A stretch of 64,000 nucleotides of DNA, taken from the NCBI GenBank assembly GCA_015478665.1, contig JADMII010000004.1:16586-80585 (forward strand). The letters are read 5' to 3'. Below the pieces are notes generated by a model. That model saw only the letters and a program-made list of their open reading frames with translations. It was not told the origin of the DNA and made no database searches. Positions 52,559 through 57,826 of this stretch are shown here, piece after piece. Source of the stretch: Dehalococcoidia bacterium (GTDB lineage: Bacteria > Chloroflexota > Dehalococcoidia > DSTF01 > JACRBR01). Every line of letters begins with the position of its first letter. The stretch's first letter is position 1. The translations under genes and the position numbers were made by a program.

Positions 52559-53383
52559 ATGCCTGTGAGCGCTCGCGTGCCTCGTCGTCACCGTCCGCCG
52601 GAGGACGGCTCCGTGTTCCCGCTGATCCCGGTGGCGGGGCGCCCGCGCGAGGAGTCACGCGGCGTCGCCTGGGTGCCGATCGCGCTGCGGCTGCTGACGA
52701 TCGCCTGGGGCGGCACGATCCTGGCCGCGCTGCTCGACGAGTTCGGGGTGGTGCCGCACTTGCCATTTCTCATCGCCATCGGCATGACGGGGTTGCTGGT
52801 CGCGGCGATCTTCGTCCTGACGCGCGACGAGCGGGAAGCGCAGCTCGCAGGCGCCGGCGACGAGGAGGCCGACGGGGAGCACGATCTGCTCACGGACCTG
52901 CCGACGTTCAACCACTTCGCGCGCCGCCTGAACGACGAGTTTACCCGCTCGCGGCGAATGGGCCGGAATGTCTCGGTCGTGCTCGTCGATGTGAACAACC
53001 TGACGGCCGTCAACCGTGAGTACGGCGTGCGCGCGGGCGACGCGGTGCTGCGCCACGTCGCGCGGACGATCGACGCGACGAAGCGCTACAGCGACGTTGT
53101 GGCGCGGCTGGGCGACGACGAGTTCGGCGTGCTGCTGTTGGAGACGGGCGCTGAGGGCATCGAGGCGTTCGTCGAGCGGCTGGAGGACCGGCTCGCCCGC
53201 GAATCGGCGATGACGCAGGTGAACGGCCGCGATGTCTCGCTGTGGGCGGGCGTCTGTTCGGGAAGCGTCACCGCGACGCCCGAGATGACGCACGCCGACG
53301 CGCTGCTCGAGGCGGCGATGGCGGACCTGAATCGCGCGAAGCAGGACCGCGAGCGGCGGCGCCGCATGTGGTTGTCGGCGTAA
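52559..53383 (+). CDS. GGDEF-domain protein, GDDEF variant motif
   Basis: TM pair, DLPTFNHFARRLNDE, VLVDVNNLTAVNREYGVRAGDAVL, RLGDDEFGVLL. Confidence 0.85.
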   Translation: MPVSARVPRRHRPPEDGSVFPLIPVAGRPREESRGVAWVPIALRLLTIAWGGTILAALLDEFGVVPHLPFLIAIGMTGLLVAAIFVLTRDEREAQLAGAGDEEADGEHDLLTDLPTFNHFARRLNDEFTRSRRMGRNVSVVLVDVNNLTAVNREYGVRAGDAVLRHVARTIDATKRYSDVVARLGDDEFGVLLLETGAEGIEAFVERLEDRLARESAMTQVNGRDVSLWAGVCSGSVTATPEMTHADALLEAAMADLNRAKQDRERRRRMWLSA

Positions 53384-53678: not shown

Positions 53679-54185
53679 TCAGGCGGCGATGCCGAGGCGG
53701 ACAGCGGCTTCGCTGGCGCTCGCCGGGTCGTTGCGCGTGAGCAGCTGGATCAGCGTGCCGATGCGCAGGATCTCGGCGAGGCCGCTGCCGGGCCGCGAGC
53801 GGTCCATCAGCGTACGGTCGAGGCACGCCTCGTAGCCGGCGCGCAATTGTGCGCGCAGCTCCTCGGAGCGGCCGGCTTCCGCCCAGATCTCCACGAGGAC
53901 ACGGCCGAACGCGGCTGCCGGCAGAGCGGACTCGCCGGTCGTCGCCGTGAACGGCGGCAGCAGCGCATCGATGCGGATCAGACGCTCGACGACGGCGGTG
54001 AGGACGGCTGACTTCTGCGGGAAGTGGTGGTAGAGTCCACCCTTGGAGCAACCCGCCGCGAGCGCGACGTCATCCATCGACGCGGCGGTATAGCCCTTGA
54101 GCGCGAAGACGGTGAGCGCCGCCTGCACGACCTGGTCGCGGGTGCGCTGGGCGCGGAGTGCCTGGCGTTCTGATTTGTTTGGCAT
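53679..54185 (-). CDS. TetR-family regulator
   Basis: RAQRTRDQVVQAALTVFALKGYTAASMDDVALAAGCSKGGLYHHFPQKSAVLTAVVERL. Confidence 0.93.
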   Translation of the reverse strand: MPNKSERQALRAQRTRDQVVQAALTVFALKGYTAASMDDVALAAGCSKGGLYHHFPQKSAVLTAVVERLIRIDALLPPFTATTGESALPAAAFGRVLVEIWAEAGRSEELRAQLRAGYEACLDRTLMDRSRPGSGLAEILRIGTLIQLLTRNDPASASEAAVRLGIAA

Positions 54186-54268
54186 GCGTCCTATGAGATG
54201 TATCGGCCGGGACGCCCGCGACGCGCACATCGGGCCGGCGCGAGACAAGCATTTTTTGTGAACGTCCT

Positions 54269-54309
54269 TGTCAATCCCTCTTGACAGACTAGCCGGCCGG
54301 TGAGAAACT
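54269..54309 (+). promoter_or_regulatory. Promoter: inverted repeat TGTCAA-N6-TTGACA overlapping -35 TTGACA (54281-54286), 17-bp spacer, -10-like GAAACT (54304-54309)
   Basis: Direct reading; consensus -35 box and paired hexamers. Confidence 0.55.
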
Positions 54310-54311
54310 AA

Positions 54312-54327
54312 TACCGACGGGTCGGTA
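54312..54327. promoter_or_regulatory. Operator-like perfect inverted repeat TACCGAC-gg-GTCGGTA, candidate TetR site
   Basis: 7-bp perfect half-sites divergent to TetR gene and placed at the expected +1 region of the + strand promoter. Confidence 0.65.
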
Positions 54328-54376
54328 ACCCGTTTCCGGAAGTGGGTCAGGCAACGTCAGGTTAGGAGGAACGAAG

Positions 54377-54403
54377 ATGGTTCAGCGCGTTTCCTGGGGC
54401 TAG
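54377..54403 (+). CDS. Candidate 8-codon micro-ORF MVQRVSWG
   Basis: SD AGGAGGA at 54364-54370, ATG 54377, stop TAG 54401-54403 inside hairpin TGGGGC-TAG-GCCCCA. Confidence 0.4.
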   Translation: MVQRVSWG

Positions 54404-54424
54404 GCCCCAACAGCACATCGAAGC

Positions 54425-54467
54425 GAAAGACTCCCGTGAGCCGGATCTCGGCTGACGGGAGTCTTTC
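54425..54467 (+). terminator. Strong terminator-like hairpin
   Basis: GAAAGACTCCCGTGAGCC-ggatctc-GGCTGACGGGAGTCTTTC, 18-bp stem with one mismatch, followed by cgtattt. Confidence 0.65.
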
Positions 54468-54500
54468 GTATTTCCACTCGGAATCGCAGGCAGACTGCCG

Positions 54501-56012
54501 TTACGCGGCTTGGCGGGGCGCCGCTGAGGCGTGATGCTCGGTCACCTCGTCGTGGTCTGCCATGCGGATCGCGACGATCTTGTCGAAGGCGAGCAGGAAG
54601 GCCTGCACGCACTTCGGGTCGAACTGCGTGCCACTACACTTGATGATCTCGTCTCGTGATACTTCCGGCGTGAGCGCCCGGCGGTACGGCCGGTCCGACG
54701 TCATCGCATCGAACGTGTCTGCGAGGACGAAGATGCGTGCGCCGAGCGGGATCTCGTCCTGCGCCAGCCCCTTCGGGTAGCCCCGGCCGTCGAACCGCTC
54801 GTGGTGCGCCAGGACGATCGTGGCGGCGCCGGAGAGGAACGAGATGTCCTTGATCATGTCGTGGCCGATCTTCGGATGGCGGCGCATGTCGACCCACTCC
54901 TCGTCGGTGAGCGGCCCGGGCTTGTGGAGGATGGTGTCCGAGACGCCGATCTTGCCGACGTCGTGCAGGAGGGCGCCGCGCTGCATGTCGACCCACTCAT
55001 CGGTCGAAGGCTGGATCCCCATGTGGAAGGCGATCTCCATCATGTAGCGGGCGACGCGGATCGAGTGGCCCTTGGTCTCCCGGTCGCGCGCGTCGAGCGC
55101 GGATACGAGGGCTTCCAGCGTGCCGTCATAGGTCTGGCGCAACTCTGTCGCCATATGAAGGATCTCCTGATTGGCCTTCTGGAGATGGCGATTCGTGTTG
55201 CGCAGCTCTTCGACGTTCTCGGCCGTCTTGTCGACGTACTGCTTGAGCGAGAAGCGCATCATGAGCGGCGGCGCGACGAAGGCGAGGATGCCGGCGAAGC
55301 CGATGGCATCGTAGGCGACGGCGAGTGCCAGCCCGAGCAGTCCGAACACTACATAATGCGGGATCAGCCACTCGAACTTCTCTCGCCAGACGGAAACGAT
55401 ACTCGAGCGCGTCGAGAGGCTGACTGCGACCGTGACGAGGCTGATGTTTGCCAGGTAGTACGCGACGACGACCAATAGGGCGATGGGCACGATCCACGGG
55501 CTGGCGTTCAGGCGCTCGCCCATCAAAAGCCACGCGATGCTGGCGGCGGCCACATTGACGAGGCTAAAGGCGCCGATGTCGAAGAGGCGCTTATACCAGC
55601 GACTGCCGCTACCGAGGTCGGTGGCGAGGGCGGCGAACGGCGCCACGAGCACCGCGCCCGCGGGCCCGAAGAGGAAGGCGACGGCGAAATCGCCGACCAT
55701 CGCGATGGAGATGGTCGTCTCGCCGTAGATCGAGAGCCGGGTGCGGCCGGCGGCGACAGCGAACACCGCCAGTACGAGGAAGCCCGGCCAGTCGCGCGTG
55801 TCGAGCTGCGGGCCGAACCAGGCGACGGCAGCGGCGCCGGCGGCGAACACGAGCAAGGCGTAGGCCAGGGCGGGCAGCGGCAGGCGCTCTGCCGGCCGCG
55901 GAGGCGCTTCCGCGGCGGCGTTGAGCTGCACGACGTTGCCCTCGCGCTCCCGCTCCGCTGGCTGCGGGAAGTCGCGCTCGTCTGCCGGTTCCTTGAAGGC
56001 TCGATTCAACAT
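54501..56012 (-). CDS. Membrane HD-GYP domain phosphodiesterase-like protein
   Basis: GHSIRVARYMM, ALLHDVGKIG, LAHHERFDGRGYPKGLAQDEIPLGARIFVLADTFDAMTSDRPYR; N-terminal TM helices. Confidence 0.95.
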   Translation of the reverse strand: MLNRAFKEPADERDFPQPAEREREGNVVQLNAAAEAPPRPAERLPLPALAYALLVFAAGAAAVAWFGPQLDTRDWPGFLVLAVFAVAAGRTRLSIYGETTISIAMVGDFAVAFLFGPAGAVLVAPFAALATDLGSGSRWYKRLFDIGAFSLVNVAAASIAWLLMGERLNASPWIVPIALLVVVAYYLANISLVTVAVSLSTRSSIVSVWREKFEWLIPHYVVFGLLGLALAVAYDAIGFAGILAFVAPPLMMRFSLKQYVDKTAENVEELRNTNRHLQKANQEILHMATELRQTYDGTLEALVSALDARDRETKGHSIRVARYMMEIAFHMGIQPSTDEWVDMQRGALLHDVGKIGVSDTILHKPGPLTDEEWVDMRRHPKIGHDMIKDISFLSGAATIVLAHHERFDGRGYPKGLAQDEIPLGARIFVLADTFDAMTSDRPYRRALTPEVSRDEIIKCSGTQFDPKCVQAFLLAFDKIVAIRMADHDEVTEHHASAAPRQAA

Positions 56013-56085: not shown

Positions 56086-56811
56086 TCAGGCGGCTTCCTC
56101 GAGCTGGGAGACGAGCTGGCGGCGCAGTGTCGACAGGATCCGCTTATGCAGCTGGCAGACGCGCGATTCGGAGAGCCCGAGCATGTCGCCGATGACGTGG
56201 AACGGCTTGGATTCGCCGTATCGCAGCTTCAAGATCGCGCGATCGCGAGCATTCAGCTCATGCAATGCGCCATCGAGCATCGCCAGCGATGCGTTGTGGT
56301 CCGCCGCCTTCGCCGGGTCGCCGGTCTCATCCTCGTCGACGGGGTCGAGCGACGGCGCGTGCTCGCCGCCGCGGTCCTGAATGGCATGCTCGAGAGAGAT
56401 GAACTTCGAACCGGCGTGGCGCATGATCCCCTGGATCTGGTCCGCCGGCATCCCCAGCCGGAAGGCGATCTCCTTGCTCGTCGGCCAGCGCCCGAGGCTC
56501 GCCGCGAGCTCCTGCGATGTCTGTTCGACCTCGCGCGTGCTCTTCCGCAGCGAACGGGGAAGCGGGTCCATCTTGCGGATCGCATCGAGGATCGAGCCGC
56601 GGATGCGGCGGACGGCGAAGCTGGCGAAGCTGGTGCCGCGGTCCAAGTCGAAGGCATCGACGGCCTGGATGAGGCCCTCGGTGCCGTAGGCGAGCGCGTC
56701 CTCGCGGTCGAGCCCGAGGGTCTTCTGGTTGTCGGTGGACATGCGGCCGACGACGAAGGCGACGAGCGGCATGTGCCGCATGATCATGTCCTGGCGTTCT
56801 GGTGTGCGCAT
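56086..56811 (-). CDS. FliA/WhiG-type sigma factor
   Basis: LVAFVVGRM, DREDALAYGTEGLIQAVDAFDLDRGTSFASFAVRRIRGSILDAIRKMDPLPRSLRK, ILKLRYGESKPFHVIGDMLGLSESRVCQLHKRIL. Confidence 0.95.
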   Translation of the reverse strand: MRTPERQDMIMRHMPLVAFVVGRMSTDNQKTLGLDREDALAYGTEGLIQAVDAFDLDRGTSFASFAVRRIRGSILDAIRKMDPLPRSLRKSTREVEQTSQELAASLGRWPTSKEIAFRLGMPADQIQGIMRHAGSKFISLEHAIQDRGGEHAPSLDPVDEDETGDPAKAADHNASLAMLDGALHELNARDRAILKLRYGESKPFHVIGDMLGLSESRVCQLHKRILSTLRRQLVSQLEEAA

Positions 56812-57118
56812 CGAACTGCTCCCCCGTTCTGCGATTCTGGCGCAGGCCAGACATCCGAGGGGGATGCGACGCAAGACGGGTTCGAGCGATGGCGCTCGAG
56901 GTCTTCGGCGGCCCGGCTGTCCGCGCTGGTGGTGGCGGACCCGTGGCTTTGCGTCCTCGCCTTTCGGCGAGTTTGCCCTGTCGGAACCTCTGACGAACGC
57001 GATGCGGCGTCCTGCCTTCCGCTCCGACTCCCTTCGCTCTCGTCAAGTCCTAACGTGGCGGCGCCGTGATTGTTACAGCCGGACGGGCGATCCAGCCAAC
57101 TTTTTTTTGAAGTTGCCC

Positions 57119-57159: not shown

Positions 57160-57220
57160 GGTCGGGACGGTGTGCATGGGCGCCGATACGTGTGCGCGAG
57201 AGTGGCGCGGCGAGGGGAAC

Positions 57221-57826
57221 ATGGACCGGTTCGAGCAGCGGAAACTGACCCGGGCGCGCCTGATCGACAGCGCCATGAAGCTCTTCTCGGAGCGCGGATA
57301 CGACCACGCGACGATCGACGACATCGCGCAGGAAGTGGGCTACTCGAAGGGCGCGTACTACTTCCACTTCTCAACGAAGGAAGACATCCTGCTCGAACTG
57401 CTGCGCCGCTGGAGCGAAGACCGCACGCGGATGCTGGCAGCGGCCGGCGCGGGCCAGCCGGGCACCGACGCCCGGGCGCTCGTCGAGGCGCTCGTCTCCT
57501 ACGACGAAGAGCGACGCTGGCCGGGCGTCGTGCTCGAGTTTTGGGCGCAGTCGATGCGCAACGAGGACGTGAAGAAGCGGCTGACGCAGGCCTACGCGGC
57601 GTGGCGCGCGCAGCTCGCCGAGGCGCTTGCCGCCGCCGGCACCGCGGCGAGCGCCGAGGAGGCCGCCGGCGTCGCCTTGGCCGCCCACGACGGCTATGTC
57701 GTCCAGCTGGCGATCGGGCCGCACAGCGGCGGCCTGATGTCGGCCACGGACCTGGCGGACGCGCTCGTGACGCCGCTGGAAGGCGAGCGAGCGGGTGAGC
57801 GCGGCCGCCGCGCGGCAGCGGTCTGA
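57221..57826 (+). CDS. TetR-family regulator
   Basis: RARLIDSAMKLFSERGYDHATIDDIAQEVGYSKGAYYFHFSTKEDILLELL. Confidence 0.93.
   Translation: MDRFEQRKLTRARLIDSAMKLFSERGYDHATIDDIAQEVGYSKGAYYFHFSTKEDILLELLRRWSEDRTRMLAAAGAGQPGTDARALVEALVSYDEERRWPGVVLEFWAQSMRNEDVKKRLTQAYAAWRAQLAEALAAAGTAASAEEAAGVALAAHDGYVVQLAIGPHSGGLMSATDLADALVTPLEGERAGERGRRAAAV

Follow-up and report, generated by a model that had tools for sequence, protein, structure and literature searches.

A predicted conserved micropeptide gene with a single-copy putative TetR-type operator in a c-di-GMP locus of Dehalococcoidia

The MccA peptide of microcin C is encoded by a gene of about seven codons with a hairpin directly 3' of it. Leaderless communication peptides (LCPs) are 8-10 residues long and are generally encoded divergently from the gene of their receptor (PMC13361665, PMC10518010), as exemplified by SIP/RopB of Streptococcus pyogenes and its relatives (PMC6565748, PMC10518010, PMC13361665), and the long propeptides of the RRNPP type are cut to signals of 5-8 residues (PMC10518010). 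It has also been reported that selected peptides induce TetR via its tetracycline pocket (PMC3407185); such TetR-inducing peptides (TIP) are further ascribed to Goeke et al. 2012 where PMC4482099 cites that work. In the literature searched, neither a natural genomic peptide-TetR pair nor peptides or a system of the kind described below in Chloroflexota could be found.

The unit described here lies in a stretch of 64,000 nucleotides from a Dehalococcoidia bacterium, which was analysed as a whole and is called the window. Its host group within Chloroflexota comprises poorly known bacteria of soil and hot springs. Judged from the DNA, the unit represents a micropeptide gene that is conserved and has a putative TetR-type operator in single copy. 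In what follows, genomes are referred to by handle (G...) and families as f1-f61, in the numbering of the tool.

The unit in the window and its gene neighbourhood

An initial annotation had read, on the plus strand, a TTGACA -35 element, a perfect inverted repeat at the expected start site, a Shine-Dalgarno (SD) sequence and an ORF of eight codons, a hairpin with the stop codon as its loop, and a terminator with an 18-bp stem, with minus-strand genes on both sides. The whole series is present in the sequence, and the divergent TetR gene (start 54185) and the convergent HD-GYP gene (3' end 54501) are real; the terminator also stands, its stem being about 20 bp with one internal mismatch rather than 18 bp. 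The features are as follows.

54281-54286, plus strand: -35 element TTGACA of the micro-ORF promoter, from the sequence
54304-54309, plus strand: -10 element GAAACT after a 17-nt spacer, weak
54312-54327, strand '.': TACCGACGGGTCGGTA, putative TetR-type operator on the expected start of transcription, from the sequence
54364-54369, plus strand: SD sequence AGGAGG, with the start codon 7 nt further on, from the sequence
54377-54403, plus strand: micro-ORF MVQRVSWG and stop, ATG GTT CAG CGC GTT TCC TGG GGC TAG
54395-54409, plus strand: stop-codon hairpin TGGGGC-TAG-GCCCCA, 6 bp with TAG as the loop, from the sequence
54426-54466, strand '.': bidirectional intrinsic terminator separating the transcripts of the micro-ORF and of HD-GYP, from folding
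53679-54185, minus strand: divergent TetR-family regulator, 168 aa, with a small C-terminal domain (PF00440)
54501-56012, minus strand: convergent MASE9-HD-GYP c-di-GMP phosphodiesterase (PF13487, E 4e-32; MASE9, E 2e-6)
56086-56874, minus strand: FliA/WhiG-type sigma factor (TIGR02479), encoded 5' of HD-GYP and in the same direction
56903-56986, minus strand: c-di-GMP-I-GGC riboswitch before the sigma and HD-GYP genes (Rfam RF03167, 68.8 bits)

The operator TACCGACGGGTCGGTA has a 2-nt centre between two perfect 7-bp arms. The micro-ORF promoter of the window was not called by a consensus promoter scan; several relatives carry TATAAA at the -10 position, and 18 of the 19 tabulated loci have a TTGAC element 78-182 nt 5' of the start codon. 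Throughout the family, an SD-like element is found ahead of the start codon. The terminator folds with a dG of -39.7 kcal/mol (z -7.9), and most relatives have a hairpin 3' of the micro-ORF, although its sequence differs.

Because the unit is followed by a convergent gene (HD-GYP in the window and in short-form relatives, TetR in most f36 members), an attenuator or leader peptide was rejected, in line with the earlier view of an orphan unit that does not lead into a downstream gene. The same annotation had suggested that translation termination might be linked to RNA folding through the stop-codon hairpin. The genus of the window and the distant G047, which both encode WG-stop, do have a hairpin over the stop codon, but it is strong only in G000, G001, G002 and G047, moderate in G071, and weak or absent in most other members; moreover, it is unremarkable when taken alone (dG -10.5 kcal/mol, z -1.0), and there is no gene for it to attenuate. 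An attenuator-like coupling is therefore highly improbable, and its general form was rejected.

The divergent regulator matches TetR_N (PF00440; E 4e-14, 52.5 bits against a cut-off of 24), which was the sole domain found in the protein, with no TPR at the C-terminus. Its AlphaFold2 model, based on a four-sequence alignment, is all-helical with a mean pLDDT of 85, and a structural search with this model returned TetR regulators only, with TM-scores up to about 0.6 and none of them close. Given the small C-terminal domain and the lack of a close structural match, the model yields no ligand hint. The corresponding neighbours of the micro-ORF in G001-G003 are 61-74% identical to the TetR of the window, and the TetR gene is divergent in G000-G003, G005, G010 and G047 (families f1, f2, and f34). 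In most f36 species, the micro-ORF and HD-GYP have TetR between them, on the strand of HD-GYP and convergent with the micro-ORF. The flanks read in f3, f4, f25 (481 bases), f28, and four f36 species (G049, G264, G322, and G337) showed no TetR, which may thus not accompany the unit everywhere. TetRs of f1/f2 show only distant kinship to those of f36 in a tree that had no useful background set and leaves their orthology unsettled.

Two further observations concern the position of TetR. Upstream of the TetR start, GGCCGATA (54201-54208, minus strand) is kept in G001-G003 and partly in G005; it resembles the -10 element GCCGATAA of FliA/WhiG sigma factors, and no matching -35 element was seen upstream of TetR. 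In f3 and f4, a divergent Cys-rich, zinc-ribbon-like protein stands in the place of TetR beside the micro-ORF, for which a Pfam search gave no family at its cut-off:

L086, 2087-2668, minus strand: Cys-rich protein of f4, MQIDWDKTIDEIL...CPRC
L088, 1083-1628, plus strand: Cys-rich protein of f3, MQFDWAKTIEDIF...CPRC

On the other side, HD-GYP is the most constant neighbour of the micro-ORF. This association is partly ascertained, because most loci were located via HD-GYP, and operator searches, which are independent of HD-GYP, agree with it. The adjacent sigma gene scores 177 bits with TIGR02479 against a cut-off of 189.6 (E 4.5e-52) and contains Sigma70 regions 2-4, and the c-di-GMP-I-GGC riboswitch was detected at 7 of the 14 relative loci searched (f1, f2, f4, and f28). 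In addition, a GGDEF (diguanylate cyclase) gene is found at 52559-53383 (plus strand), convergent with TetR and also present in G001 and G002; enzymes of c-di-GMP synthesis and breakdown thus stand on either side of the TetR/micro-ORF pair. Beyond the riboswitch, another TetR-family gene, whose C-terminal domain is of BetI type (PF13977), occupies 57182-57826 on the other (plus) strand.

Occurrence and peptide forms among relatives

A DNA similarity search gave no matches beyond the window's genus, and relatives were therefore traced via the TetR and HD-GYP genes instead. The micro-ORF unit was found at the same place in 33 of the 43 genomes of the class that have a MASE9-HD-GYP orthologue, spread over eight families (f1, f2, f3, f4, f25, f28, f34, and f36). 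The recurring parts are a promoter, an operator-like site, an SD sequence, a tiny ORF with Trp near or at its end, and a terminator. The unit was not found beside HD-GYP in G091, G308, G347, G024, G092, and five f61 genomes, an absence that refers to this position rather than to the whole genome. The genomes are mostly draft, and contigs end near the unit in G004, G006, G008 and G038. Family f36 takes in Tepidiforma, which belongs to the class Dehalococcoidia of Chloroflexota (PMC10284905). The initial annotation had offered a micropeptide as one product and had named a lack of micro-ORF conservation in related genomes as the finding that would speak against it; the micro-ORF is conserved, and its retention across eight families supports the predicted micropeptide.

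Within the window's genus, G001 and G002 encode MVQRATWG together with the operator, SD sequence and stop hairpin, and a search of 393 genomes with the exact micro-ORF pattern gave matches in this genus only. Across the family and order, the layout is kept but the sequence has diverged. The short peptides include MFRIQW (G003), MTFRVSW (G004), MTFRVQW (G005), MTFRITW (G006), and MKKYHWF (G010), and further peptides are MKKLAGIASAALVVAAVAATQTPVLLWISWWWR (G008), MVRGWSDE (G009), MAYGWDD (G011), MKLMWTGMAAALLVATALAPYAPTIMGIRVR (G012), and MKLVWTSLAVALLVATAVAPYAPTILGLRW (G017). The 3' flanks of HD-GYP genes across the class added MTFDITWGE (G071), MARGSWWG (G047), MSVSWDG (G038), and MALW (G041), as well as the f36 short forms MAKIIRW (G049) and MARNITWED (G322) and fourteen 30-residue forms of f36 (e.g., MARLRTLLVVGALAAVAVVSTAVPALTISW and MARLRMLLVAGVLAAVAVVSTAAPMLTIRW). 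Trp lies in the last four residues of 32 of the 33 peptides, the exception being G012. The core varies in Trp position and charge, which exceeds the expectation for one ligand with one receptor, though covariation of the receptor is possible.

In the Tepidiforma relatives, the ORF has 30 codons, and the same Trp core (...LTISW) is preceded by an N-terminus resembling an export signal. These long forms begin with one or more basic residues, followed by about 14 hydrophobic residues and then by small residues, often with proline, an arrangement that by inspection reads like a Sec signal. By the same inspection, a leader-like N-terminus is present in f36, f4 and G008, and absent from MVQRVSWG of the window. 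Both forms occur within f2 (MKKYHWF; MKK...WISWWWR) and within f36 (MAKIIRW and MARNITWED; MARLRTLL...LTISW), and what they have in common is the C-terminal Trp-bearing core, implying that the core is needed whereas the hydrophobic N-terminus can be spared. Most simply, the core would be the active part, and the leader may have been gained or lost repeatedly. Five long-form peptides had no significant match in Pfam/NCBIfam, and a profile of the 30-residue form, run against 301 genomes of the phylum, found one convincing f36 genome, the other hits being weak and almost without exception internal to long frames. The Trp core shared across the family, the leader-bearing 30-residue relatives and the HD-GYP association all go beyond what had been noted from the window.

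An alternative role for such peptides is that of an accessory or regulatory subunit, in which the 30-residue form would sit in the membrane and tune MASE9-HD-GYP, and the short forms would dock on its cytoplasmic side. The constancy of HD-GYP as a neighbour, the membrane sensor nature of MASE9, and the single hydrophobic stretch of the long form are consistent with this. However, that stretch has only about 14 residues, and small residues, often with proline, come after it, which makes a Sec signal likelier than an anchor, and the short forms have no hydrophobic stretch; such a subunit is considered unlikely.

Chance, selection and operator copy number

Among 16 short-form loci, an ORF of 4-9 codons with an SD sequence and a C-terminal Trp was observed at 14, compared with 0.06 expected from 400 dinucleotide shuffles per locus (SD matching at least 5 of 6 positions, Trp in the last four codons); as the criterion was set post hoc, these figures are descriptive only, though the gap is large. 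As a control, the two strands were compared over 95 kb of flanks: six matches fell on the expected strand and one on the opposite strand, and all six lay no more than 350 nt from where the stretch read at HD-GYP ends.

The 30-residue ORF of f36 is under purifying selection (pN/pS 0.12-0.26). In genus g67, 0.102 synonymous and 0.026 nonsynonymous differences per site were counted (ratio 0.26), and the corresponding values in genus g135 were 0.300 and 0.037 (ratio 0.12). The short forms keep FR[VI] despite synonymous codon changes (TTC/TTT, CGC/CGT, and GTT/GTG). These 30-residue relatives, with their export-signal-like front and purifying selection, do not fit a translation minigene, which would act through peptidyl-tRNA drop-off or through the nascent peptide on its own ribosome and have no use in trans. 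Extreme shortness (as in MALW), a strong SD sequence, and, in most members, a Trp codon next to the stop or close to it would be expected of a minigene, but the last codons vary as well (W, WG, WED, WDD, and WWWR), leaving this reading improbable.

Conservation along the unit is uneven. Between species, the SD-ORF segment is 64-100% and the promoter-operator segment 73-86% identical, versus 45-57% for the leader between operator and SD and 43-58% for the first 60 nt past the stop codon; G001 and G002, the closest pair, reach 72% in the leader and 63% past the stop. The low identity of the RNA leader and 3' part argues against the other product that the annotation had offered, a small regulatory RNA under TetR control, whose micro-ORF would be incidental or serve stability. 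Although the predicted transcript of about 150 nt is strongly folded (z -4.1) and no downstream gene is present, its strongest single fold is the terminator, and an Rfam scan gave no match for the micro-ORF unit. A small RNA thus retains only a low probability.

The exact operator TACCGACGGGTCGGTA has no second copy in the window's genome, where two-mismatch matches are no commoner than those of a control. Similarly, TACCGACNNGTCGGTM occurs as one exact copy per genome, at the micro-ORF promoter, in nine genomes of the order, and TACCGRCNNGTCGGYA as one exact copy at the same promoter in nine f36 genomes and G071. With a single exact operator in each of 19 genomes, there is no second exact site for another target, a count that covers exact matches and would pass over mismatched or differently shaped sites. 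When the operator was combined with TTGAC in a pattern search of 400 genomes of the phylum, three sites outside the family were found, all right before ordinary TetR genes. The position of the operator at the start site and its single copy per genome agree with the TetR-type control that had been predicted for the unit.

A layout in which a TetR regulator faces a missing gene might also be left when the former operon of TetR is deleted, with promoter, start codon and terminator remaining. Such a remnant was rejected and is largely refuted, its chance being minimal: eight families share the micro-ORF/terminator layout, with similarity at the peptide level and one operator per genome, and a full-length gene stands at that position in none of the relatives read. 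The unit is very probably a genuine conserved peptide-coding gene.

A candidate peptide signal compared with known systems

As a working model, the divergent TetR would bind the operator and let go on a cue, after which the micro-ORF would be translated from its strong SD sequence. The functional part would be the Trp-bearing C-terminal core (RVSWG in the window), made directly in the short-form species and probably cleaved from a Sec-type precursor in the long-form species. The envelope of Tepidiforma has been described as a cytoplasmic membrane, a peptidoglycan layer and an S-layer (PMC10284905), and an exported peptide would accordingly face no outer membrane. The peptide would most likely signal to the adjacent sigma/HD-GYP c-di-GMP module. 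One option is that it binds the MASE9 membrane sensor domain of the HD-GYP phosphodiesterase, and another is that it relieves its own TetR in a self-inducing loop; MASE9 is a candidate because HD-GYP is the constant neighbour, and TetR because of the single operator and the precedent of artificial peptides.

The module looks like an undescribed peptide signalling module. That the micropeptide acts as a peptide signal may be given an even chance, and a free-standing, TetR-guarded micropeptide gene in a c-di-GMP locus, which is the best explanation of the whole, is about equally likely to be right or wrong. A new signalling class, in which a TetR with its sole operator on a 4-9-residue peptide has that peptide as its own ligand or as that of MASE9-HD-GYP, with repeated switching between leader-bearing and leaderless forms, is a tentative proposal. 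Peptides of 4-9 residues encoded directly in the genome escape gene callers, and the micro-ORF, found in eight families and in many of them with its own single-copy operator, is among the shortest conserved peptide genes for which sequence by itself makes a case. Should the proposal be true, Chloroflexota would gain a peptide signalling system, a TetR-family protein or a c-di-GMP phosphodiesterase would be a natural peptide receptor, and the leader-bearing and leaderless forms of one peptide would offer a natural comparison.

Among the known systems, MccA shares with the unit a very short gene followed by a hairpin, whereas the micro-ORF in the window has no adjacent modification or export genes. 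TIPs resemble it as short peptides able to induce a TetR-family repressor, but they were artificially selected and are used fused to a carrier protein. RRNPP propeptides (Phr, PapR, and NprX type) recall the 30-residue relatives in their export-signal-like N-terminus and short C-terminal core; on the other hand, the window form is leaderless, the receptor class is another one, and processing of the long forms here is conjectural. LCPs share the free-standing short ORF with no leader and its own translation signals (MVQRVSWG with AGGAGG), as well as the divergent orientation to the regulator gene in those genomes where TetR is divergent. Since its regulator is of the TetR family and has no TPR receptor domain, as opposed to the TPR receptor of Rgg/RRNPP type, the window unit is not a member of the LCPs. 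Moreover, LCPs belong to Firmicutes and carry aliphatic runs, whereas the host here is of Chloroflexota, the peptides contain Arg and a C-terminal Trp, leader-bearing relatives occur in the same family, and the unit stands in a c-di-GMP locus.
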